Below are positions 1,923 through 29,246 of a stretch of 48,969 bases of DNA, piece by piece; the stretch's first letter is position 1; each line of letters opens with the position of its first letter. Origin of the DNA: Rhodospirillales bacterium. Lineage in GTDB: Bacteria; Pseudomonadota; Alphaproteobacteria; Reyranellales; Reyranellaceae. Made by a program: the position numbers and the translations under genes. The stretch covers positions 1-48,969 of the forward strand of contig JACPVT010000110.1 of NCBI GenBank assembly GCA_016191685.1, written 5' to 3'. Below the pieces are notes generated by a model that saw nothing but the letters and a program-made list of their open reading frames with translations, was not told the DNA's origin and ran no database searches.

Positions 1923-2381
1923 TTAAGGTGGTGCCAGGGAGCGCTCCATGATGATGGTACGCTCGTCGCCGTGGTAACTGTCGCGCACGGCCTTGAAACC
2001 CAGCTTGGAATAGAAGTGCTCTGCGGTAACCGACGATGGGACTGTAAGCGCTTCCACGCCCATCTCGCGCGCGGCGCGCTCGACCTCGGCCATGAGACGC
2101 CTGCCGACGCCTCGCCCCTGGAGATCGGGTGCCACGAATACCGTTCGAACGACCTTTCCGTCCAGGCTGGCGGTCCCGACAAGCCGGTCGCCTGTCACGG
2201 CAACGAAGACTTTTCGTCTGCCCATCAACTTCAGCACCTCGGCAGGGCTGAAGTTCTTCACCAGCCGTTCGATGACCTCCTGCGAATAGTCCTTGGTGTT
2301 GGATTCTCGGAGCGCCCGCAGGATCACCGAGCTCACGTCTGCTGCATCGCCCTCATGGGCAGCCCGGATCACGCACTCCAT
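1923..2381 (-). CDS. GNAT-family N-acetyltransferase
   Basis: This 152-residue protein has the GNAT fold. The acetyl-CoA pyrophosphate-binding motif is Q88-G-R-G-V-G-R (the Q/R-x-x-G-x-G/A motif A), preceded by the strand TVFVAPDLQ and followed by the motif B strand and AEHFYSKLGFKAV near the C-terminus. It would transfer an acetyl group from acetyl-CoA to an amine; the substrate is not evident. ATG 2381 is chosen because GGAAGG lies 8 bases upstream. The longer open frame runs back into the peptidase gene and is not supported. The NTF2-like gene follows on the same strand. Confidence 0.85.
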   Translation of the reverse strand: MECVIRAAHEGDAADVSSVILRALRESNTKDYSQEVIERLVKNFSPAEVLKLMGRRKVFVAVTGDRLVGTASLDGKVVRTVFVAPDLQGRGVGRRLMAEVERAAREMGVEALTVPSSVTAEHFYSKLGFKAVRDSYHGDERTIIMERSLAPP

Positions 2382-2427
2382 CGCTGCACCTTCCACCATT
2401 CTGCGATTCTCGGCGTGTCGCGCAAAT

Positions 2428-3258
2428 CTAAAGTCCGAAGCGCTGCCAGTGCAGGCGCTCCTCGATCGCGACAAGGGTCGCAGGTCCGATTTCATCCAGT
2501 CCGGTGGCAAGGCCGAAGCGGGACAGCAGGCGGCGGCGCGGTCCGATCACCGGCAGGCGCACCTTGGCGCCGTAACGTGCCTGCAGGGTGGCGCGAAGTT
2601 CGCCCAAACCATCCGCCAGCCCCAATTCAAGACCGCGCTTGCCGGTCCAGAATTCGCCGTTGAACAGCGCCGCCTCATCGCCCTTGAGGCGCGAGGCCCG
2701 GCGTTGGCGAACCCAATCCTTGAATCCGTCGTGGATTTCCGCCTGCAGGCGTTTCAGGCGTTCTACGTCCTCGGGATTCTCGGGGCGAAACGGATCGAGC
2801 ATCGCCTTGCGCTCTCCCGACGTGTGCACGCGGCGTTCGACGCCATGACGGGCGATCAGATCCTGGAAGCCGAAGCCCGCGCTGATGACGCCGATCGAGC
2901 CCACGATCGAACTGGGATCGACGATGATCTCGTCGGCCGCGCAGGCAAGCCAGTAGCCGCCCGAGGCCGCCACGTCCTCGACGAAGGCGATCACCGGCAG
3001 GCCCTTTTCCGCAGCATGAAGGCGGATGCGCTGGGCGATCAATGCCGACTGCACCGGCGAGCCTCCGGGCGAGTTGATCGCGAGCGCCACCGCCTTGGCG
3101 CCGCGCATGTCGAAGGCCCGTTTGAGCAAGGGTGCCACCTGGTCGATGGACAGGCTGCGGCCCGCCAGCAGGCCACCGGTGGAGGCAATGACGCCCGCCA
3201 GCCGGATCACCGGCACGGTGGGGGTACGGCGGAAGCGGTCTCTGATCCAATTCAACAT
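2428..3258 (-). CDS. S49 family peptidase (SppA/SohB-like, short form without membrane anchor)
   Basis: This is a 276-residue member of the ClpP/crotonase-fold S49 peptidases, which use a Ser-Lys dyad to degrade cleaved signal peptides or membrane-associated peptides. The oxyanion motif INSPGGSP (61-68), the nucleophile S99 in AASGGYWLA and the general base K151 in SGERKAMLDPF are all present. It is the short one-domain type. Unlike many SppA proteins it has no N-terminal transmembrane helix, only a basic MLNWIRDRFRR start. ATG 3258 is used; a TTG at 3294 would overlap the preceding gene. The broken methyltransferase lies directly upstream on the same strand, a neighbourhood often seen beside ispB in alphaproteobacteria. 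Confidence 0.88.
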   Translation of the reverse strand: MLNWIRDRFRRTPTVPVIRLAGVIASTGGLLAGRSLSIDQVAPLLKRAFDMRGAKAVALAINSPGGSPVQSALIAQRIRLHAAEKGLPVIAFVEDVAASGGYWLACAADEIIVDPSSIVGSIGVISAGFGFQDLIARHGVERRVHTSGERKAMLDPFRPENPEDVERLKRLQAEIHDGFKDWVRQRRASRLKGDEAALFNGEFWTGKRGLELGLADGLGELRATLQARYGAKVRLPVIGPRRRLLSRFGLATGLDEIGPATLVAIEERLHWQRFGL

Positions 3259-18653: not shown

Positions 18654-21602
18654 TCATTCGTCGCTCCCGCCCGTGGTCGACCATTCGGCCACGCGCTCGA
18701 GGTGCTCGTAGTCGTTGAAGTGCGGCACGAACTCCGGCTGCGGAAGTGCCACGTACGGTGTGGCGGGATTGGCGTAGCGCTCGGCCATCTTCTCGACCAG
18801 CGCCAGCATCGCCGGGATCAGCTTGTCCGCACCCTTGATGTTCTTGATCTCGCCGCCGTCGCCCAAGCCATTGGCGCGCCAGTAGGTGAGAATGACCTCG
18901 GCAGCCTTGCCTTTGATCTTCCTGAACCCGCCCGTTTCGGCCATCGCCGCCTCGAGCAGGAGCTGCGGCGCGAACAGCCCCTCGAGCTCGCGCGTCGAGG
19001 GCACGCGGCCGGTCTTGTAGTCGATCACCTCCCACACGCCGGTGCCCAGTTCGTCGATGCGGTCGGCGATGGCGGTGATGGTGAGTGGGCGATTGCGCGG
19101 ACCGACCTTGATCGAGCCCGCCGTCTCGCCGTCGAGCAGGCGCAGGCCCGAGGCGCGGCGCCTGTTCTCTTCGCCCACGAACCAGCGCGCCAGCCGTTGG
19201 AAGCGCGGCCACCAGAAGGCGCGTTCGGCCGGCGCGGTCAAAAGCTCGCCAAGATGCCTCTCGCCGATATCCTCCAACTCGTGAATGGCGTCGCCCGGCA
19301 GCAGGCCGGAGGGATGCCTCTTCAGGAAATCGTCGAGGGCGGCGTGCAGTGCCGAGCCGCGTTCCGCTGCGCCCAGCTCGGCTTCCAGCGGGTCGAGCAG
19401 GCGGAGCTTCAGGATCTGCCGTGCATAGAGGCCGTAGGGATCGCGCCGCCATTGCTCGATGCTGGAGACCGAAAGTTCGGTCGGTCGCGCCGCCAGCGGC
19501 GGCCGTGGCTCGGGACGCGGCCAGGGCTTGTAATCGTCCGGCCGGTCGATCGCCTCGGCCCAGTCGATGTAGCGTCGGCCGCGCTGGATGTATTTGGGCA
19601 GCTCGCCAGCCGAATTGGGGTCATGACCCAGCAGCGCATCGAGCCGCGCCAGCCAGCGTGACGAAACGGTGGGAGCGCCGCCTTCGCGCTCGGCGCGGGT
19701 CAGCAGCACATGGTCGGCGGCCAGCGCGGAGACGAAGTCGTGCGCCGACAGGCCGATGCGCCGCTCGGGCTGCGGCAGGCCGAGCGCGCCGCGCATCGGC
19801 CGGTTGAGCCACGGCCCGGTCTCGACGGACGGCGGCCAGCTGCCCTCGTTCAGGCCGCCGAGGATCACGAGATCGGCGCGCTGCAGGCGGGCTTCGAGCG
19901 GTCCCCAGATCGAGAGCCGGGGATGGCGGCCGTAACGCGGCCGGATCGTGGCGGACGCCAGCATGGCCGCCAGCAGTCCCGGCCACTCGCCGCCCGCGAC
20001 GGTTGGTTGGTCGCGCCAGGCCCCGCGCAGCCTTGCCAGCGTCTCGGCCATCGCCTCGCCGGCCTCGCCGCGCCACAGCGTGTCGGCCGAGGAGACCATC
20101 TCGGCGGCCGCAATGGTGGCGTCGAGCAGCGCGTCGGGCGGGGCGCCCTCGGTCATCAGCACGGCAAGGCCGGAAGTGGCAGCGTCGAGCCGATCGATCA
20201 GGGCACGCACGGCATCGGCGTCCGCGTCGTCGTCCTTACGCCGGTTGGCGACGATCCGGCGCACCGCCTCGAGGCCGATGGCGGGCTTCAGTCCGCGCAG
20301 ATACTTGCGGTCGAGACGGCGTGCAGTGTCGAGCAGATCGGCGCGCGACCGGCCGAGCACGCAGAGCGGATGTTTCAGCAACGCCAACAGATCGACCGGG
20401 CCGAAGCCGCCGTCGACCGCGGCGAGCAGCGCGCGCAGCAGGGTGGCGGGCGGCGTGTCGGCCAGCGGCGTGCCGGCCGAATCGTCGATCTCGATGTTCC
20501 AGCGCCTGAGTTCGGCGCCGACGCGTCGCGCCAGCTCGCGGTCGGGCGTAATCAATGCCGCCGTGCGGCGCGGCTCATTCAGTGCCTCGCGAAGCGCGAG
20601 CGCGATAACGACCGCCTCCTGGTGGGACGTGGCGCAGTCGGCGCGGGCGACGTGGTCCAGCGCCGCCGGATCCGGCCGCGCCCAGGCCTCGCTGGTTTCG
20701 GCTGGCCGCATCAGTTCGGCGACCAGCGTCCGCCGCGCCCGATCGCCGCCGCGGCTGCCGGGCCAGTCCGGCACCGAGGTGCGATCGACACCGAGCGCCA
20801 ACAGCAGTTCATGCAGGCCGAATTGCGGATGCGACGGCTCGAGCTTGTCCCAGCTGTCCCGGTCCATTTCGCTATCGAGGCCAGGCAGCACGATCGCGCC
20901 CAGCGGCAGGCCGGCGACCACGGCCAGCAGTTCGCGCGTGGCCGGCTGCGAGCCGGTCGAGCCTGCGGCGATCACCGGTGTTGCGGGCGGATGGTTGCGC
21001 CACCGTGTGGCCTGGGCGCGGATGGCGAGCGTTCGACGCCCGATGCTGTCGATCTGGCCGCGTTCGGCCAGCATCGCCGGCCAGGCGGTGCCGACGATAT
21101 CGAGGAAGGTGAGCGTGCGCCGCCAATGCTCGGCAAAGTTGCCCGTGACGAGACCGGCCAGCCTGTCGAAGCCCACGCCTTCGATCGACAGCTCGTCGAG
21201 CAATCCGCCCAGCTCACGCGCGAGCTTGAGCGCCTGCGCCGCCGATTGCGCAATCGGATGGCCCTGGTCGTCCCTGAAGGCGGCCACGAGCCGGGCCAGC
21301 AGCGCTTCGCGCTCCATGGGATCGATGGCGGGCGGCAGGGCGAGCGCCGCGTCGTCGCCCGGCGACAGGCCCCATTCACTGTCGTCGACGTCGCCCAGCG
21401 GCGCCATTCGCGGCAGGATCGTGGGCTTGCCGTCGGACGCGCGCAGGAAGGCCTCGCGCAGCGCCCGCACCGAACGCCGGGTCGGCACCAGGATCAGCAC
21501 GTCGGCCAGGCCGAGCGGATCGCCGCCGTATTCCGCCAGCACGCCCCGCGCCAGTTCGTCGGCGAAGCGGCGGTCGATGCCGATGGCGAAGACGCCCTTC
21601 AT
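18654..21602 (-). CDS. addB: Double-strand-break repair protein AddB (alphaproteobacterial type)
   Basis: This 982-residue partner of AddA has a degenerate helicase-like N-terminus (DVLILVPTRRSVRALREAFL), VIAAGSTGSQPATRELL, VILGGLNEGSWP and LLTRAEREGGAPTVSSRWL. The C-terminal nuclease domain carries IDYKTGR at about 860-866. I see no Fe-S cysteine set around that domain, as usual for the alphaproteobacterial type. The start ATG 21602 overlaps the murU stop by four bases, so addB sits within the tsaE-amgK-murU-addB-addA transcript. Confidence 0.95.
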   Translation of the reverse strand: MKGVFAIGIDRRFADELARGVLAEYGGDPLGLADVLILVPTRRSVRALREAFLRASDGKPTILPRMAPLGDVDDSEWGLSPGDDAALALPPAIDPMEREALLARLVAAFRDDQGHPIAQSAAQALKLARELGGLLDELSIEGVGFDRLAGLVTGNFAEHWRRTLTFLDIVGTAWPAMLAERGQIDSIGRRTLAIRAQATRWRNHPPATPVIAAGSTGSQPATRELLAVVAGLPLGAIVLPGLDSEMDRDSWDKLEPSHPQFGLHELLLALGVDRTSVPDWPGSRGGDRARRTLVAELMRPAETSEAWARPDPAALDHVARADCATSHQEAVVIALALREALNEPRRTAALITPDRELARRVGAELRRWNIEIDDSAGTPLADTPPATLLRALLAAVDGGFGPVDLLALLKHPLCVLGRSRADLLDTARRLDRKYLRGLKPAIGLEAVRRIVANRRKDDDADADAVRALIDRLDAATSGLAVLMTEGAPPDALLDATIAAAEMVSSADTLWRGEAGEAMAETLARLRGAWRDQPTVAGGEWPGLLAAMLASATIRPRYGRHPRLSIWGPLEARLQRADLVILGGLNEGSWPPSVETGPWLNRPMRGALGLPQPERRIGLSAHDFVSALAADHVLLTRAEREGGAPTVSSRWLARLDALLGHDPNSAGELPKYIQRGRRYIDWAEAIDRPDDYKPWPRPEPRPPLAARPTELSVSSIEQWRRDPYGLYARQILKLRLLDPLEAELGAAERGSALHAALDDFLKRHPSGLLPGDAIHELEDIGERHLGELLTAPAERAFWWPRFQRLARWFVGEENRRRASGLRLLDGETAGSIKVGPRNRPLTITAIADRIDELGTGVWEVIDYKTGRVPSTRELEGLFAPQLLLEAAMAETGGFRKIKGKAAEVILTYWRANGLGDGGEIKNIKGADKLIPAMLALVEKMAERYANPATPYVALPQPEFVPHFNDYEHLERVAEWSTTGGSDE

Positions 21603-22291
21603 CCCAGCACGCGTTCGGCGTCGGCCAGCGCCTGCGGCGTGCCGACGTGAAACCAGTCGCCGTCGTGCACCAGGCCGTAGAGGCGGCCGGCCGCCTCGGC
21701 CCGGTTCCAGAGCCTCAGCAGCGAGAACGGTCCCTCCGGGGTTCCGTTGAACAGGCGCGGCTCACACACGGAGATGCTGGCAAAAAGATACGGTGCCGTC
21801 TCGGCGTTGCCGCGGTGACGGGCATGGCCGTCCGGCTCAAGATAGTAGTCGCCGCGATCCTTGTCCTCGCGGCCGATGGCCGCCGCCAGCGGATGCAGCA
21901 GCAGCAGCGCATCCATGCGCCGGGGATCCCACGTCGCCTGCAGGCGGCCCAGCATCGACTCCGCGCCGTCGCGCCACAGGCCGTCGCCGTTCAGCACGAA
22001 GAACGGCCCGTTGCCGAGCAGCGGCAGGGCATTGCGGACACTGCCGCCGGTCTCCAGCAACCGGTCCTCGTGGATGACGCGGGCACGGCCGCGCAGGCGG
22101 TCGGCGATCTGGCCGCCGAGATGGTGCACGTTCACCACGACATTCTGCACGCCGTGGCGCTGCAGGCGGTCCATTGCGCGGTCCAGCATGGAGCGGCCGG
22201 CCACGGCGATCAGCGGCTTGGGTGTGTGGTCGGTGAGCGGCCGCATGCGTTCGCCGCGCCCCGCGGCCAGGATCATCGCGGTCCGGATCAT
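21599..22291 (-). CDS. murU: N-acetylmuramate-1-phosphate uridylyltransferase (MurU-like)
   Basis: This 230-residue nucleotidyltransferase has the signature ILAAGRGERMRPLTDHTPKPLI at residues 8-29, then VVNVHHLGGQI, FVLNGDGLW (metal-binding Asp) and a C-terminal LVHDGDWFHVGTPQALADAE. In the cell-wall recycling route MurU turns MurNAc-1-phosphate plus UTP into UDP-MurNAc, bypassing fosfomycin-sensitive synthesis. The assignment rests on sequence type and on the adjacent amgK-like kinase. A mannose-1-phosphate guanylyltransferase-like activity is the main alternative. It overlaps amgK by four bases upstream and addB by four bases downstream. Confidence 0.88.
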   Translation of the reverse strand: MIRTAMILAAGRGERMRPLTDHTPKPLIAVAGRSMLDRAMDRLQRHGVQNVVVNVHHLGGQIADRLRGRARVIHEDRLLETGGSVRNALPLLGNGPFFVLNGDGLWRDGAESMLGRLQATWDPRRMDALLLLHPLAAAIGREDKDRGDYYLEPDGHARHRGNAETAPYLFASISVCEPRLFNGTPEGPFSLLRLWNRAEAAGRLYGLVHDGDWFHVGTPQALADAERVLG

Positions 22292-23292
22292 GGCTCACCA
22301 ATGCGCCGCAGCGGCGGCGGCAGCAAACGATCGACCCAGGCGCGCAACGGTTCCAGCGCCTCGTGCCGCAGCGCGCGCTCGAACATCCGCCACACCCGCG
22401 GCAGATGCTGCAGGTAATCGGGCTTGCCGTCGCGCTTCAGCAGCCGCACGAACAGGCCGATGATCCGCGCGTGGCGTTGCGCAGCCATCAGCGCGAAGCC
22501 GGTCTTGAAGCCGGCCGGATCGGCGATCCCGGTTTCGCCGAGATAGTGCGCGAGGCAGGCGGCATGAATATCGGTGGGGACGTCGCGGCGGGCGTCCTCG
22601 ATCAGCGAGACCAGATCGTAGGAGGGATGGCCGCGCTGGGCGTCCTGGAAATCGAGCAGGCCGCAGGCCTTCATCCCCGGCCGCCCGGGTAGCCACAGCA
22701 GATTGTCCTTGTGGTAGTCGCGCAACAGCAGGGTCTCGGCTGCGGGCGGCAGGAGCGCGAGGCATTCCCGCCAGGCGGCGACGTACCGTTCGGTCTCCTC
22801 GGCGGGCGTCGGCCGGCTGGTTGCGGCCGGCAGATACCATTCCGGCAAAAGCATCGCGGCTTCGATCAGGGCGTCGCCGGCGTAGGCGCCGAGCCCCGGC
22901 AGCAGGGCGTGGCCCTCGGCGCGGTGCAGAGCCACCAGCACATCGGTCGCCCGCGTGTAGAGCATGTGCTCGTCGCCGCCTGCCGCCAGGACACGGGCAA
23001 AGGTGTCGTCGCCCAGGTCCTCCAGCAGCAGGAAGCCGTGCTCGGGGTCTTCCGCCAGGATCTGCGGCGCGCTGAGGCCGAGCGCGATCAGGTGCCGGCC
23101 GATGCGCACAAAGGGCCGCACGTCCTCCTGCGGCGGCGGAGCATCCATCACCACCGCGGAGTCGCGCGGCCGGGTCAGCCTGAAGTATTTGCGGAATGAG
23201 GCATCGCCTGCCAGCAGGCGCTCGCCAGCATTGCCCCAGCCGGCGTCGCGCACGAATGCGGCGCGCCGCAGATCGCGTTCAGACTTCGCCAA
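22288..23292 (-). CDS. amgK: N-acetylmuramate/N-acetylglucosamine anomeric kinase (AmgK-like, APH fold)
   Basis: This 334-residue aminoglycoside-phosphotransferase-fold kinase has an N-lobe with GDASFRKYFRL, a hinge LLLEDLGDDTF, the catalytic loop LLRDYHKDNLLWLPG and the metal site LLDFQDAQRGHPSYDL. AmgK phosphorylates the anomeric carbon of MurNAc or GlcNAc released from the wall, feeding MurU next door. I prefer TTG 23292 because GGAGGGAG lies about 10 bases upstream; GTG 23319 is the longer option. Either start overlaps the end of tsaE. The tsaE-amgK-murU-addB order is typical for alphaproteobacteria. Confidence 0.87.
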   Translation of the reverse strand: MAKSERDLRRAAFVRDAGWGNAGERLLAGDASFRKYFRLTRPRDSAVVMDAPPPQEDVRPFVRIGRHLIALGLSAPQILAEDPEHGFLLLEDLGDDTFARVLAAGGDEHMLYTRATDVLVALHRAEGHALLPGLGAYAGDALIEAAMLLPEWYLPAATSRPTPAEETERYVAAWRECLALLPPAAETLLLRDYHKDNLLWLPGRPGMKACGLLDFQDAQRGHPSYDLVSLIEDARRDVPTDIHAACLAHYLGETGIADPAGFKTGFALMAAQRHARIIGLFVRLLKRDGKPDYLQHLPRVWRMFERALRHEALEPLRAWVDRLLPPPLRRIGEP

Positions 23293-23722
23293 GACGGGCT
23301 TCTCCCTCCAGGGTCGCACGCCGTCCCTCGCCTTCGATGGACAGCGTCACCGTGAGCCGTTCGTGCGGCAGCAAGGGGCCCAGCCGCTCCGCCCATTCGA
23401 TCAGCACGATGCCGTCGGTCCGCGCCTCCTCCCAGCCGAGTTCGAAAACCTGCTCGGCGGTCTCCAGCCGGTAGAGGTCGAAATGCCAGAAGGTGCCTCG
23501 TGGCGTGTCGTAGACTTCGACCAGGGTGAAGGTCGGGCTCGGCACGACCAGTGCCGGCTCGCCCGAGGCCGCCCGCAGGATGGCGCGGGCGAGCGTGGTC
23601 TTGCCGGCGCCGAGACCACCCATCAGCGCCACGACATCGCGCGGCCGCAGGCGCCCGGCCAGGGCCGCGCCAAACCGCTCGGTGGCGGCCTCGTCGGGAA
23701 GGGACAAAGAAAAAGTCGGCAT
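23279..23722 (-). CDS. tsaE: tRNA threonylcarbamoyladenosine biosynthesis ATPase TsaE
   Basis: This 147-residue P-loop ATPase of the TsaBDE complex is needed for the t6A37 modification of ANN-decoding tRNAs. Walker A is GGLGAGKTT (35-43). Then come SPTFTLVEVYD, the FWHFDLYRL motif, and the IEWAERLG motif with the conserved W and E. Length is typical. The N-terminus MPTFSLSLPDEAATERFGAAL aligns with the family, so ATG 23722 looks right. That ATG, however, lies inside the 3' arm of the intrinsic terminator that follows ahcY, and the terminator T tract encodes Phe3. No separate promoter is evident in the 64-base gap. The next gene overlaps its end. Confidence 0.94.
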   Translation of the reverse strand: MPTFSLSLPDEAATERFGAALAGRLRPRDVVALMGGLGAGKTTLARAILRAASGEPALVVPSPTFTLVEVYDTPRGTFWHFDLYRLETAEQVFELGWEEARTDGIVLIEWAERLGPLLPHERLTVTLSIEGEGRRATLEGEARLGEV

Positions 23723-23740
23723 CTTTCGATGCCGACTTTT
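23705..23740 (-). terminator. Rho-independent terminator after ahcY, containing the tsaE start codon
   Basis: On the minus strand a 13-bp perfect stem AAAAGTCGGCATC / GATGCCGACTTTT (23740-23728 and 23723-23711) closes a GAAA loop and is followed by T-rich TCTTTG. This is a textbook intrinsic terminator about 50 bases after the ahcY stop. The tsaE ATG (23722-23720) is in the 3' arm, so the hairpin would also hide the start codon in read-through RNA. Confidence 0.85.
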
Positions 23741-23750
23741 AGCATGGTCG

Positions 23751-23784
23751 CGCCCTCGCTTGCCCTGTGGGCGCTTGAGGGGGC
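23751..23784 (-). other. Second hairpin between ahcY and tsaE
   Basis: An interrupted inverted repeat lies directly after the ahcY stop. The outer arms are CGCCCTC and GAGGGGGCG, and the inner arms are GCCC and GGGC around a TGT loop. It has no T tract of its own. It could stabilise the ahcY 3' end or help the terminator that follows. Confidence 0.5.
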
Positions 23785-23786
23785 GG

Positions 23787-25181
23787 TTAGTAGCGGTAGA
23801 GGTCGCCCTTGAACGGACCCGCTTCCGCCACGCCGATGTACTTGGCCTGGTCGGGCCTGAGCTTGGTCAGCTTGGCGCCGACCTTCTCGAGGTGGAAGGC
23901 GGCGACCTTCTCGTCGAGGAACTTGGGCAACGTGTAGACCTTCTTCTCGTACTTGCCCGGGTTGGTCCAGATCTCGATCTGGGCCAGCGTCTGGTTCGAG
24001 AACGAGGCCGACATGACGAAGCTCGGGTGGCCCGTGGCGTTGCCGAGATTCACCAGGCGGCCCTCCGACAACACGATGATGCGCTTGCCGTCGGGGAACT
24101 CGACCTCGTCGACCTGCGGCTTCACGTTGTGCCACTTGAAGTTCCGCAGGTTCGAGATCTGGATCTCGGAGTCGAAGTGGCCGATGTTGCAGACGATGGC
24201 GCGGTGCTTCATCGCCTTCATGTGGTCGAGCGTCAGCACGTCGACGTTGCCGGTGGCGGTGACGAAGATGTCGGCGCGGGGCGCGGCCTCTTCCATGGTC
24301 ACGACTTCGTAGCCTTCCATCGCCGCCTGCAGGGCGCAGATCGGGTCGATCTCGGAGACCATGACGCGGCATCCGGCCTGGCGCAGCGAGGCGGCCGAGC
24401 CCTTGCCGACGTCGCCGAAGCCCGCGACCATCGCCACCTTGCCTGACATCATCACGTCGGTGCCGCGGCGGATGCCGTCGACCAGCGATTCACGGCAGCC
24501 GTAGAGGTTGTCGAACTTCGACTTGGTGACCGAGTCGTTGACGTTGATGGCGGGCCACAGGAGCTTGCCCTCTTTTTCCATCTGGTAGAGCCGGTGCACG
24601 CCCGTGGTCGTCTCCTCGGTGACGCCGCGGATTGCGGCGCCGAGCTTGGCGTACCAGCCGGGCTTGGCCTTGTTGGTCCTGGCGATCGCCTTGTAGAGGA
24701 CTTCCTCCTCCTCGTTGGTCGGCTTGGAAATCAACGAAGGATCCTTCTCGGCGCGGATGCCGAGATGGACCAGCAGCGTGGCGTCGCCGCCGTCATCGAG
24801 GATCATGTTCGGCGCGCCGCCGTCGCCCCATTCGAAGATCTTGTGGGTATAGTCCCAGTATTCCTCGAGGCTCTCGCCTTTGACGGCGAACACCGGCGTA
24901 CCGGCCTTGGCGATCGCCGCGGCGGCATGATCCTGGGTCGAATAGATGTTGCACGAGGCCCAGCGCACGTCGGCGCCCAGCACCTTCAGCGTCTCGATCA
25001 GCACGCCGGTCTGGATGGTCATGTGCAGCGAGCCCGCGATGCGGGCCCCCTTCAGCGGCTTCTTCGGCCCGTATTCCTTGCGGATCGACATCAGGCCCGG
25101 CATCTCGGTCTCGGCCATGTCGAGTTCCTTGCGGCCCCAGTCGGCGAGCCCGATATCCTTGACGATGTAATCCTGGGCCAT
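23787..25181 (-). CDS. ahcY: Adenosylhomocysteinase
   Basis: This 464-residue NAD-dependent enzyme splits S-adenosylhomocysteine into adenosine and homocysteine, removing the inhibitory product of methyltransferases. Visible features are [18 protein letters not shown], the [15 protein letters not shown] active-site stretch, [21 protein letters not shown], the Rossmann loop AGFGDVGKG (NAD binding), [10 protein letters not shown] and the C-terminal [12 protein letters not shown] reaching into the neighbouring subunit, ending KGDLYRY. It includes the internal insert found in proteobacterial forms. ATG 25181 has GGAG about 6 bases upstream. A palindrome near the likely promoter may be an operator. 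A strong terminator follows. Confidence 0.98.
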
Positions 25182-25252
25182 GTGGCGCTCCTGGCGGCTG
25201 AGGGGAAAGCGGCCGTGTCATATCAGCGGCTCGGGGCCACCTCAACGCGCCG

Positions 25253-25262
25253 TATGCGCATA
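25253..25262. promoter_or_regulatory. Palindrome TATGCGCATA in the ahcY promoter region
   Basis: This perfect 10-bp palindrome lies 71 bases upstream of the ahcY ATG and next to TTATAT on the minus strand, which could be a -10 box. Such placement fits repressor binding. SahR-type ArsR regulators control ahcY in many proteobacteria, but I cannot match their motif from memory. No SAH-riboswitch core is visible in the 71-base leader. Confidence 0.3.
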
Positions 25263-25317
25263 TAAGCAAGAATTTATGGGCAGATAACCGGCGCTTTATG
25301 CCGGAACACCGCCGGCT

Positions 25318-25629
25318 TCAATCCTCGCCGAATTTGCCCTCGATCAGGGCGGAAAGGGCGGCCATGGCCTCGACGGCCTGGCGGCCCGAGCAGACAAGCT
25401 CGATCTCGCAGCCGATGCCGGCGCTCAGCATCATCAGCCCCATGATCGACAGGCCGGAGACTTCCTGGCCCTTGAAGCCGACGCGCACGACCGCATCGAA
25501 CTGGCCGGCGGTGCGGACGAACTTGGCGGCTGCCCTGGCGTGCAGGCCACGCTTGTTGGCGATCCCCAGTGTCCGGCGGAGCGCTCCGATGCTGGCATCG
25601 GCCGCGCCTTGCGACGCGGCATCGCTCAC
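25318..25629 (-). CDS. ptsH: HPr-family phosphocarrier protein
   Basis: This 103-residue HPr passes phosphate from enzyme I to EIIA proteins. The phosphorylated histidine is H30 in NKRGLHARAAAKF. The regulatory serine phosphorylated by HprK is S61 in SGLSIMGLMML. The N-terminus is about 14 residues longer than classic HPr. GTG 25629 overlaps the EIIA stop (GTGA), with AAGGAAG just upstream, so the two are translationally coupled. With HprK and a lone EIIA-Man but no sugar permease, this is a regulatory PTS. Enzyme I is not in the window. Confidence 0.93.
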   Translation of the reverse strand: MSDAASQGAADASIGALRRTLGIANKRGLHARAAAKFVRTAGQFDAVVRVGFKGQEVSGLSIMGLMMLSAGIGCEIELVCSGRQAVEAMAALSALIEGKFGED

Positions 25630-26030
25630 GAGGCTTCCTTGGCCAGGATTCGGGAGGCGACGGTGATGTACTTGCGGCCAGCTTCCTGGGCCATGCGCAC
25701 GGCTTCGGCGATCGGCCGGCTGCGCACGCCGGCAAGCTTGACCAGCATCGGAAGGTTGACGCCCGCCAGAACCTCGATGTGGGCCTGCTCCATGATCGAA
25801 ATCGCGAGGTTCGACGGTGTGCCTCCGAACATGTCGGTCAGTACGATCACGCCTTCGCCCGTGTCGCAGGCGCGAACGCACTCGAGGATTTCGCTACGTC
25901 TCTTTTCCATGTCGTCGTCGGCACCGATGCAGACTGTCGAGACACATTGCTGCGGACCAACGACATGTTCGAGCGCGGCCAAGAACTCACGCGCCAGATT
26001 GCCGTGGGTCACCAGTACGATACCAATCAT
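25626..26030 (-). CDS. PTS EIIA component, mannose family (regulatory)
   Basis: This 134-residue EIIA-Man domain protein has the phosphorylated H9 in MIGIVLVTHG. The conserved loop VLTDMFGGTPSNLA and LAGVNLPMLVKL are present. It has no IIB or IIC partner, as in the alphaproteobacterial PTS, where it receives phosphate from HPr and acts as a regulator rather than a transporter. It lies 15 bases after rapZ and overlaps ptsH by four bases. Confidence 0.93.
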   Translation of the reverse strand: MIGIVLVTHGNLAREFLAALEHVVGPQQCVSTVCIGADDDMEKRRSEILECVRACDTGEGVIVLTDMFGGTPSNLAISIMEQAHIEVLAGVNLPMLVKLAGVRSRPIAEAVRMAQEAGRKYITVASRILAKEAS

Positions 26031-26045
26031 CCATCCCCACCCGGT

Positions 26046-26993
26046 CTACGCCGCGCCGCCCGGCCCCCCGGCCCCGTCGGCGTCTCGGTGGGTGAGAGTG
26101 ACCGAGCGGCCGACGCCGCGCAACCAGTCTGCCAGCGCCTCGGCCACCGCCACCGAGCGGTGGCGGCCGCCGGTACAGCCCACGGCAATGGTCAGATAGC
26201 TCTTCCCCTCTGCGTCAAAACGCGGCAGCAGGGGGCCGACCAGCCCTCTCAAATGCTCGAGAAAGGCCGCGTAGTCGGGATCGGTTGCAATAAAGGACGC
26301 GACGGCCGGATCGCGGCCGGTCAATGGTTTGAGCGCCGGCTCGTAGTGCGGGTTCTTCAGGAACCGCGTGTCGAAGACAAGGTCGGCCTCGCGCGGCAGG
26401 CCGCGACGGAACGAGAACGACATCACCGACAGGCGGGTGCCGATGCGCGGGCCGAGGGCGAAATGGCCCGCAAGCACCTGCTTGAGCGCGTGCGGCGACA
26501 GGGACGAAGTGTCGATCACGAGGTCGGCGGTATCGCGCATCCAGCCGATTTGGCGGCGCTCCTCGACGATGCTGTCGATCACCGGTCGGTCCGGCGCCAA
26601 CGGGTGAGGCCGTCGTGATTCGGTGTAGCGGCGCTGAAGCGTTTCGGTGTCGCAGTCGAGGAACAGCAGCTTCGCATCGAGTTCGGGCCGCTCGCGAAGT
26701 TCGCGGGCACGGCGGACGAGGTCCTGCGGATCGAAGCCGAACGTGCGGGTGTCGACTCCGAAGGCAAGCGGTGGCGCGATCGTACCCGGGTCGCCGGCGG
26801 TCGAGCGCATCAGCTCGCCGAGCAGCGGCAGCGGCATGTTGTCGACGGCGACGTAGCCCATGTCTTCGAGCGCATTCAGCGCCGTCATCCGCCCGGCGCC
26901 GGAGAGGCCGGTCACCAGGACGAACGGGCGGCGCTCGCTCGCGGCGGCCGGAGACGAGGCGGGCGAAGACGAGGAGGGCGGGCTGTCGGGCAT
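26046..26993 (-). CDS. rapZ: RNase adapter / nucleotide-binding protein RapZ
   Basis: This 315-residue protein of the RapZ (YvcJ) family has an N-terminal P-loop domain and a C-terminal domain with the conserved CTGGRHRSVAVAE. In E. coli it senses glucosamine-6-phosphate and guides RNase E to the GlmZ RNA. Its partner here is unknown. The P-loop reads GLSGAGRMT, with Arg and Met where Lys and Ser/Thr normally bind phosphate and Mg. It continues ALNALEDMGYVAVDNMPL, typical of the family. A Ser/Pro/Ala-rich leader of about 20 residues precedes the domain. ATG 26993 is used; TTG 27038 would overlap hprK. It is followed by EIIA and HPr. Confidence 0.92.
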   Translation of the reverse strand: MPDSPPSSSSPASSPAAASERRPFVLVTGLSGAGRMTALNALEDMGYVAVDNMPLPLLGELMRSTAGDPGTIAPPLAFGVDTRTFGFDPQDLVRRARELRERPELDAKLLFLDCDTETLQRRYTESRRPHPLAPDRPVIDSIVEERRQIGWMRDTADLVIDTSSLSPHALKQVLAGHFALGPRIGTRLSVMSFSFRRGLPREADLVFDTRFLKNPHYEPALKPLTGRDPAVASFIATDPDYAAFLEHLRGLVGPLLPRFDAEGKSYLTIAVGCTGGRHRSVAVAEALADWLRGVGRSVTLTHRDADGAGGPGGAA

Positions 26994-27009
26994 GGCAGGA
27001 GCCAAGTCA

Positions 27010-27468
27010 TCATGCGGTTTCGATTTGCGCCAGGGCAAGGCGCAACTTGGCTGCGGCCGAAACTTCGAATGGTGCCAGCGCGAGCACGGGCAGGACGACG
27101 CCCGACAAATCCTCTTCGGCCGGCTCGGGCAGCCGCTCGACGCGGTCGACCGGCACCAGGTCGACCAGCAGCGACAGCGGCGCCCGCGACAACAACTGGC
27201 CGCGGGCCAGCTTCAGGATTCCGACACCACGTACCTCGAGCAGGCCGGCGAGCGCCGCCGGCGCCGTGGCGATCAGGCCGCGCCCGCGCCGGACGACGCG
27301 GGTCTGGTCATCGGCCACCAGGCGCGCACCGGTCTCGATCAGGCGCAGCGCCAGATCGGACTTGCCGGCACCCGAGGGGCCGCGCAGCAGTACCCCGCGC
27401 CAGGTACGGGCGGATGGTCTGCCGCCAGGCCGGAACGCGACGCAGGTTGCATGTACCAGCACCGTCAT
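27010..27468 (-). CDS. hprK: HPr kinase/phosphorylase, short alphaproteobacterial form
   Basis: This 152-residue protein comprises only the C-terminal kinase domain of HprK, as usual in alphaproteobacteria; Bacillus HprK is about 310 residues. Walker A is GPSGAGKSD (30-38). RLVADDQTRVV then follows, and the family motif LLEVRGVGILKL lies near residue 75. It phosphorylates HPr on the serine (S61 of the HPr downstream), tuning the regulatory PTS. The ATG overlaps the chvG stop (ATGA). The coupling of a sensor kinase gene to hprK is conserved in rhizobia. Confidence 0.93.
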   Translation of the reverse strand: MTVLVHATCVAFRPGGRPSARTWRGVLLRGPSGAGKSDLALRLIETGARLVADDQTRVVRRGRGLIATAPAALAGLLEVRGVGILKLARGQLLSRAPLSLLVDLVPVDRVERLPEPAEEDLSGVVLPVLALAPFEVSAAAKLRLALAQIETA

Positions 27469-29246
27469 TTGCGGGCGTTCGCGGCGGGTACCCGGATGGT
27501 GAAGCGCGCGCCCAGCACCTTGCCGTCCGGCGCGTGGCGGTTGCTGGCGGCGATCGAGCCGCCGTAGGTCTCCATGATCTGCCGGCAGATCGAGAGACCC
27601 AGCCCCGAATGCTGGCCGAAATGCTCGATCGGTCGCTCCGAGTAGAAGCGTTCGAAGATCGATTCGAGATTCTCCTCGGGAATGCCCGGCCCCTCGTCGT
27701 CGATGGTGACGACGAAGGGGCCGCCGCGCGGCTCGCGTCCCAGTTCGACGACGATGCGCGAGCCTGCCGGACCGAACGACAAGGCGTTGTCGATGACATT
27801 GCGGAAGACCTGGCCGTAGCGGCCGTCGTGGCCATGTGCCGCGAACGGCGGGTTGGCGGCGACCCGGAACTGGACCTCGACGTCGTGTTTTTTTGCAGCA
27901 CTGATGGCGTAGTGACCGGCCATGTCGGCCAGGAGGCCGTGGAGGTCGACGGGCTTCACTTCGCCGCGCATCAGTTCGGCGTCGAGTCGCGAGGCGTCGG
28001 AAATGTCGGAGATCAGCCGGTTCAACCGGTTGATGTCGTCCATGACGATGGTCATCAGCTTGTCGCGGCGTTCCGCGTCGAGGCCGGGCCGTGCCGCCAT
28101 TTCGATGGCGGAACGCAAGGAGGTCAGGGGATTCTTGAGTTCGTGCGCCACGTCGGCGGCGAAACTCTCGATGGTGTTGATGCGCTGCCACAGCGCGTCG
28201 GTCATCGAACGTAGCGCGTCGTTCAGATCGCCGATTTCGTCGCCGCGTTTGCCGAGGTTGGGAATCTCCGGCCGGCTTTCGCGTGCCAGGCGCACCTCGT
28301 CGGCGGCGCGCGCCAGTCGGACGATGGGCTGGGTGATCGTGCCGGCGAGATAGAGTGAGAGCAGTACCGTGATGCCGAGCGCCGCCGCGGCAATGGTCAG
28401 CATGTCGTAGCGGACCTGTCGCAGGGAGGCGGCGATGGCGCGATTGTCCCGGGTAAGGATCAACGCGCCCAGCACTTGCTTGTAGCGTTGCACGGGCACT
28501 GCGGCGCTCAGGATCATGCGGCCGTCGGGCGCCATCCGCACCGCCGAGGCGTTGAAGCCCCGCAGCGCGCTGGTGGCTTCGGGATAGTCGCGCACCGAAG
28601 GTGTGGCGCGCTCGACATATTCGGGGAAGCGGTCGGCCCGCGACAATTGCCGGGCGATCCAGTCGCTCACCCGGTCGGCGACGGCAATCTCGACGACGGC
28701 GGGCGCTTCGGGCGGCGGCAGCGGGACACTATGGATGCGCCCGGCCTCGCTCAGAAAATTCGAATCTCCGACAAGGTCGCCGGTCTCGGTGAACAGGCGC
28801 GCGCGCACGCCGGTCGGACGCACCAGCCGGGTCAGGAGCTGACGCGCGGCGTCGGCGTCCAGCCGGTTGACCGTGGCCTCCCCACCCACCACCGCGACTT
28901 CGCCGATGCCGGCGGCCACCATTTCGCCCTGGACCAGCAGCGAGGCGAGTTCGGCATCGATCAGCTCGTCCTCGTAGTCGCTCAGATAGACCGCGCCGAG
29001 CGTCAGCAGCGCCACCGGCACGATGTTGAGCAGCAGGATGCGGCGGGTGAGCGGCGAATAACGTCGGGCACTGCTGCGCCGCCGCCGCAGCAGTGACGGA
29101 GATTCGGCCGCAGTCGCCGGCGCATGCATGCGCCGGCGGGCCGGCATCAGCCCGCCGAGCGCCGCCGCCAGTCGCGAACCAAACGATTTTTGCGCCGTGC
29201 GGCGCCCGCCCGGCTCAGGCGTCGCGGTATCGATATCCAATGCCAT
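27465..29246 (-). CDS. chvG: Membrane sensor histidine kinase ChvG
   Basis: The product is 593 residues from the chosen start. It has TM1 at about 70-88, a periplasmic sensor region ([15 protein letters not shown] onward) to about 280, and TM2 at 282-303. HAMP follows, then the H-box [15 protein letters not shown] with H368, the N-box VIDNALSF, G1 DEGPGIP and G2 SGLGLSI. ChvG/ExoS homologues sense acid or cell-envelope stress, gated by the periplasmic ExoR where present, and phosphorylate ChvI. ATG 29246 overlaps chvI by 32 bases; ATG 29147 is an alternative giving a shorter cytosolic leader. No exoR is in the window. Confidence 0.92.

Follow-up and report, generated by a model that had tools for sequence, protein, structure and literature searches.

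The ahcY–tsaE junction

The window, meaning the whole analysed stretch of 48,969 nucleotides, belongs to a genome that resembles Reyranella, a bacterium of soil and water, and is 75% complete and divided among 390 contigs. Genes of the window include a divergent pckA, a ChvI/BvrR-type two-component pair, PTS genes, ahcY, tsaE, an amgK-like gene, a murU-like gene and addB, with the pckA and ChvI/BvrR labels assigned from the translations and from synteny, and the kinase domains from a domain search. addA, taken over from an earlier sequence-only reading of this DNA, is presumably a further member of the downstream set. The features considered here are:

23787–25181, minus strand: ahcY, S-adenosylhomocysteine hydrolase (open reading frame; Pfam PF05221, E 3e-145)
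23789–23787, minus strand: ahcY stop codon
23765–23776, minus strand: upstream box AWYSRCCCACAG (in the window AAGCGCCCACAG; CCCACAG core at 23771–23765), a probable factor-binding site
23736–23746, minus strand: extended −10-like element CRTGYTARRA (in the window CATGCTAAAAG; hexamer TAAAAG at 23741–23736), fitting CRTGYTA
23711–23740, minus strand: terminator hairpin (5' arm 23740–23728, GAAA loop 23727–23724, 3' arm 23723–23711)
23730, minus strand: predicted tsaE transcription start (the A of GGCATC), in the 5' arm, giving the 8-nt leader AUCGAAAG
23722–23720, minus strand: tsaE start codon ATG, within the 3' arm of the hairpin
23705–23714, minus strand: T-rich tail TTTTTCTTTG, overlapping tsaE codons 3–6 (ACT TTT TCT TTG)
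23279–23722, minus strand: tsaE, t6A ATPase (open reading frame; Pfam E 5e-35; TIGR00150 above cut-off)
22288–23319, minus strand: amgK-like sugar kinase, the first gene downstream of tsaE (NF045698, E 2e-77, below the model cut-off)
21599–22291, minus strand: murU-like nucleotidyltransferase (NF045697, E 2.5e-66, below the model cut-off)
18654–21602, minus strand: addB (TIGR02786, E 1e-297, above cut-off)

The gene order between 18654 and 32518 resembles the bvrRS/pckA operon of Brucella, without divL between ahcY and tsaE; the available text of PMC9491525 places divL and a gene of unknown function at that position in B. abortus. The called GTG start of the amgK-like gene lies 41 nt inside tsaE (23279–23319), which suggests either that the two genes are tightly coupled or that the true start lies further on.

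Between 23740 and 23711 the minus strand reads AAAAGTCGGCATC-GAAA-GATGCCGACTTTT and continues with T C TTT G. A terminator scan of 21500–28500 returned six terminator-like sites, where shuffled versions of the same region yield 3.3 on average, and the junction hairpin has the highest pair count of the six, with 13 pairs, 6 of them G-C. The 37-nt hairpin has a folding energy of −20.8 kcal/mol (z = −7.2), a stability that no shuffle among 200 reached. A stable, G+C-rich hairpin is followed directly by a T-rich tract, the anatomy of an intrinsic terminator; its tail is broken up (T5-C-T3) and forms part of the tsaE coding sequence. The 3' arm holds the tsaE codons ATG CCG ACT TTT, and this ATG is the earliest ATG, GTG or TTG in frame after the preceding stop. 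Within codons 1–15 past it, no alternative start is common to all relatives, the most frequent being a TTG at codon 6 (31/45). The sequence-only reading had placed after ahcY a 13-bp, GAAA-looped stem with a T-rich tail, and the tsaE start in the 3' arm of that stem, and both observations were borne out. A known riboswitch or leader was rejected, as an Rfam search of 23000–26000 gave no family above chance, its only matches being two to Thr_leader, at E values of 0.32 and 0.85 and with scores well short of its gathering threshold.

Conservation of the hairpin and of two upstream boxes

Relatives were collected by TsaE searches of 36 genomes of the same genus together with the window genome (a match in 35 of 37), and 45 loci were added from a second collection. 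The first pass comprised 76 loci. One of these (L002) had no tsaE match; 17 had tsaE without an adjoining ahcY (5 Reyranella-clade contig ends and 12 more distant loci); and 15 repeated a junction already present, a junction being the last 60 nt before tsaE plus the first 45 nt of the gene. With these left out, 43 distinct junctions remained, and three more, from five further same-genus sequences of which two were duplicates, brought the set to 46.

The sequence-only reading had proposed a search for the hairpin in relatives, and the element, hairpin included, is kept in 45 of the 46 distinct Reyranella ahcY–tsaE junctions. The gap between the two genes is 42–74 nt in 43 of the 46, and the nested element occupies it. 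The sole exception, L029 (L064 is identical over the junction), has VapD-like and DUF5397 genes between ahcY and tsaE (1953–2452); its VapD match falls short of the model cut-off, and tsaE is called from a TTG that overlaps the vapD stop. L057 has 713 nt inserted between ahcY and the element, and the box, the −10 and the hairpin, the last with one mismatch, remain beside tsaE. This insertion (2291–3000) holds a 136-aa reading frame that matches nothing in Pfam. In L077, the one genome from another family of the same order, ahcY adjoins tsaE and a hairpin is present, by eye without a T tail and without such an element.

Covariation was measured on 37 distinct element sequences. Standard pairs fill 99.2% of the hairpin pair cells, and 30–52% when the partner is shifted by 1–3 columns. 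Double changes occupy 6 cells at 2 stem pairs, compared with 0.9 cells in shuffles, and 0/500 shuffles reach 6 cells; 37/500 shuffles reached the 2 pairs with a double change, and 323/500 the 10 pair types. Covariation in the hairpin is thus present, and its modest extent reflects how little the stem varies. One stem change, U-A to C-G, occurs in 5/37 sequences and accompanies a change of TsaE residue 3 from Thr to Ala. Codon 3 is ACT or GCT in 44/45 rows of the alignment and codon 4 is TTT in 44/45, where usage in the relative G016 is 3.3% of Thr codons for ACT, 8.9% of Phe codons for TTT and 3.0% of Ser codons for TCT, and in a second relative, G022, 6.1% for ACT and 14.2% for TTT. The alignment indicates that the hairpin is selected at the nucleotide level across Reyranella, with rare T-ending tsaE codons retained.

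Upstream of the stem lie two further conserved blocks, both outside it except for the last bases of the −10. CCCACAG is exact in 44/45 rows (L004 has CTCCACAG), and an A stands five bases ahead of it in 44/45; CRTGYTA fits all 45 rows and is followed by an A-rich stretch. The spacer between the boxes is free in sequence and restricted in length, measuring 7–9 bp in 31 rows or 17–20 bp in 14, and never 10–16 bp. On a tree built from the flanking genes, with the element left out, the spacing class changes 11 times, although 14 of the 43 inner branches are weakly supported and the count may exceed the number of independent events, since some long spacers look related: those of the distant rows L001 and L048 are alike, and about five unlike long-spacer groups can be told apart by eye. 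The circular concentration of the spacing at 10.5 bp is 0.88, against 0.39 for a control, the interval between the ahcY stop and the box. As the two classes lie about one helical turn apart, the boxes are read as DNA signals, probably bound by a protein that would keep its face of the helix.

The pair of boxes appears to be particular to this junction. CCCACAG is not enriched ahead of genes in G016 (3/118) or G022 (4/96), and none of these 118 and 96 copies, drawn from 2.4 Mb, has TGYTAR close by; scored with a weight matrix, the window site reaches 36 bits, and the best site in 1.2 Mb of G016 reaches at most 19. A genus-wide repeat or regulon was rejected on the lack of a second box pair in these 2.4 Mb. 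Three further candidates were set aside: a small upstream reading frame from the RTG of CRTGYTA, whose register with tsaE varies (the same frame, at −24 or −27, in 15/45 rows); TGYTAR as a conserved stop codon, which is TGCTAC in L060; and a separate hairpin holding CCCACAG, whose flanks pair in many rows, though by eye not in L003, L057 and L086.

Promoter-like signals and predicted tsaE leaders

The similarity of CRTGYTARRA to an extended −10 was examined by word counts in 1.2 Mb each of G016, with its own tsaE excluded, and G022, using rough gene calls from a gene caller seeded with the window genes. In G016, 9 of 14 copies of TGYTARRA lie ahead of genes, compared with 0.8 expected, and one is antisense; the control words score 1/21 (TGGTARRA), 0/7 (ACYTARRA) and 7/182 (TGYTCRRA). 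Undirected −10 word counts were weak, and these targeted counts clear. In G022, the figure is 4/15, again with 0.8 expected, but control words equal it (CAYTARRA 6/20, TGGTARRA 4/16), so this genome fails to confirm the specificity of the word. TG and TA of the −10 are invariant in 45/45 rows, but the T at −7 is absent, and the A-rich stretch with which the −10 ends may instead belong to the terminator, as its A tract. The aligned flanks of the 45 rows contain no conserved −35-like word, nor a canonical −35 at 16–18 bp, and a consensus promoter scan of 21500–28500 found no promoter. A canonical −35 is dispensable for extended −10 promoters.

The region upstream of ahcY provides a yardstick. 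In 29/29 distinct sequences, TTGAGG (26) or TTGAGA (3) is followed after exactly 17 bp by TA preceded by TGA or TGT, with −10 words that include TGATATGAC (9), TGATAAGAC (8) and TGTTAAGAC (3). The last matches TGYTARRA, which indicates that the tsaE-type −10 class is in use next door. In the window, a block on the minus strand at 25300–25217 carries CATAAA-type repeats and an inverted TTATATG above the promoter-like TTGAGG-N17-TATGAC, and looks like an operator for an ahcY regulator. A new riboswitch in the ahcY leader was considered and dropped, its conserved blocks being read as a promoter.

A pyrimidine–purine step stands 5–7 bp past the −10 hexamer in 45/45 rows, and transcripts predicted to begin there fall into two groups. 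In 34 rows the leader would be 8 nt long and contains neither GGAG nor GAGG, and all 34 start with ATG rather than GTG, the pattern expected of a short leader lacking a Shine–Dalgarno sequence. In the other 11 it would be 12–13 nt long and always contains GGAG or GAGG, and 9 of these use GTG, which is thus confined to rows with a Shine–Dalgarno sequence in the predicted leader (9/9). Leaderless mRNAs are reported to be common in Caulobacter (PMC4117421), and the leaderless genes counted in the available text on Gluconobacter start with 57 ATG versus 3 GTG and 2 TTG (PMC5756330).

RNA folding separates read-through transcripts from these predicted ones. The claim that the start codon would be locked in read-through RNA is upheld by its unpaired probability, below 0.001 in 45/45 rows. 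When the RNA starts at the predicted A or G, the median unpaired probability is 0.46 (range 0.04–0.96), the codon being modestly freer and still partly paired, and RNA begun 2 nt earlier still makes a 5-bp hairpin over the start codon. The exact start site would therefore matter, since an RNA 2 nt longer refolds over the codon.

A proposed nested terminator, promoter and start codon, and its rivals

The best reading of these data is a terminator, a promoter and a start codon nested in one another and conserved in Reyranella, to which we assign a probability of about 0.7. Beyond the conservation of the sequence, the mechanism that we infer would run as follows. CRTGYTARRA would serve as the extended −10 of tsaE's own promoter, assisted by a CCCACAG-binding factor on one face of the helix, about one extra turn away in some species, and RNA polymerase would begin within the 5' arm, at the A or G of GGCATC. 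Only 3 of the 13 nt of that arm would remain in the tsaE mRNA, which for this reason would be unable to form the terminator or the full lock; its translation would use an 8-nt leader and ATG, or a 12–13-nt leader with a Shine–Dalgarno sequence. The RNA of ahcY has both arms and would therefore terminate in the T tract, and any that escaped would have the tsaE start buried. The element would in this way insulate tsaE and the genes that follow from ahcY in very little space.

The sequence-only reading had instead proposed that tsaE is transcribed by read-through from ahcY, with the hairpin as a switch for both termination and translation that links SAH, t6A and wall recycling. The terminator anatomy, the conservation and the fully paired start codon in read-through RNA (45/45) all stand in favour of such dual control, as does the report, in the available text of PMC9491525, that the homologous genes from bvrR to trx-1 in B. 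abortus, ahcY and tsaE among them, form one 16-gene operon by RT-PCR. Dependence on read-through and a single switch shared with ahcY found no such support: the boxes, which point to a separate promoter, are left unexplained together with their helical spacing; GGAG or GAGG is missing right before the buried ATG in 34/45 rows; the spacers between the boxes vary freely, and no conserved anti-terminator is seen in them once aligned; the Rfam search described above returned nothing above chance; and the element of L057 is parted from ahcY. The sequence-only reading had named, as an outcome that would count against it, a promoter and start site downstream of the hairpin with a leaderless or shorter tsaE. 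The comparison of relatives points to something similar, a short-leader tsaE mRNA, although here the promoter core would precede the hairpin and transcription would start within it. A regulatory link between ahcY and tsaE is possible, and less likely than the nested arrangement; its read-through form we regard as unlikely.

Plain compaction would have an ordinary ahcY terminator running into tsaE, which would be served by read-through or a distant promoter, while the boxes serve something else. Intrinsic terminators are common, and the shortness of the junctions (42–74 nt in 43/46) fits this, but the strong conservation of CRTGYTA and CCCACAG with their helical spacing does not, nor does the element of L057, which goes with tsaE rather than ahcY. 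Moreover, G016 has 28 strict terminators in 1.2 Mb, 3 of which adjoin or run into a called start, and by eye none of the three is clearly this arrangement, one TTG-in-loop call being ambiguous; compaction is accordingly rather improbable. Least probable of these alternatives is that the boxes are the two parts of an operator, bound by a repressor or a structural protein, and do not belong to a promoter. Helical spacing indicates only binding on one face of the DNA, and CCCACAG is not a general promoter word, both of which would suit an operator; the resemblance of CRTGYTARRA to an extended −10, enriched before genes in G016 though unspecific in G022, and the pyrimidine–purine step 5–7 bp downstream in 45/45 rows argue for promoter parts.

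The nested arrangement can be compared with four known systems. It shares with intrinsic terminators a G+C-rich stem, a stable tetraloop, an A-rich 5' flank, a T-rich tail and a position after a gene, and differs in that the opening codons of the next gene make up the 3' arm and tail, so that the stem constrains TsaE residues. The RTG-N-TA core and the pyrimidine–purine step 5–7 bp downstream recall alphaproteobacterial extended −10 sigma-70 promoters, such as the Caulobacter RpoD −10, given as GCTANAWC (PMC8144410); unlike these, the tsaE element lacks a conserved −35, has CCCACAG at two distances one helical turn apart and has its predicted start inside a terminator stem. Alphaproteobacterial leaderless and short-leader mRNAs are resembled by the predicted 8-nt leader without a Shine–Dalgarno sequence (ATG in 34/34), whereas some tsaE rows have 12–13-nt Shine–Dalgarno leaders and may use GTG. 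As in attenuators and start-sequestering hairpins, one hairpin could end transcription and also hide a start codon, but no leader peptide, ligand domain or anti-terminator is seen here, and the hairpin also forms the end of the upstream gene. Searches of open-licence literature yielded no description of such a nested arrangement, and on Reyranella promoters, helical phasing and tsaE with ahcY the only relevant item in it was PMC9491525.

Annotation usually gives terminators, promoters and coding starts intervals of their own; about 70 bp here appear to be all three. Selection on the hairpin appears to fix rare codons and to alter the TsaE N-terminus in step with the opposite arm, and with a start site that splits a terminator, the same sequence could end one RNA and spare the next. 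The natural series of spacings (7–9 and 17–20 bp) and the one lineage without the element make the model directly testable.

An extension of the nested reading, rather improbable in our view, is a relay: the polymerase finishing ahcY would slide back, rebind sigma and start tsaE. The T tract lies about 16–24 bp past the predicted tsaE start, so that a terminating polymerase would be left on or beside the tsaE promoter, and in single-molecule work polymerases are reported mostly to stay on the DNA after intrinsic termination and to restart nearby (PMC6978380, PMC6978322). If the relay were true, ahcY transcription would feed the tsaE, wall-recycling-like and addB operon, or block it where termination is slow, and the junction would be a natural site built for termination and reinitiation.

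Read-end pipelines can miss such nested sites: one E. coli study is described as having discarded 3' ends with a start site at most 20 bp upstream (PMC7815308). Assemblies may also break at this place; three contigs (L007, L038 and L037), the first two of which are probably one contig, begin at most 3 nt from the tsaE start, inside the hairpin.
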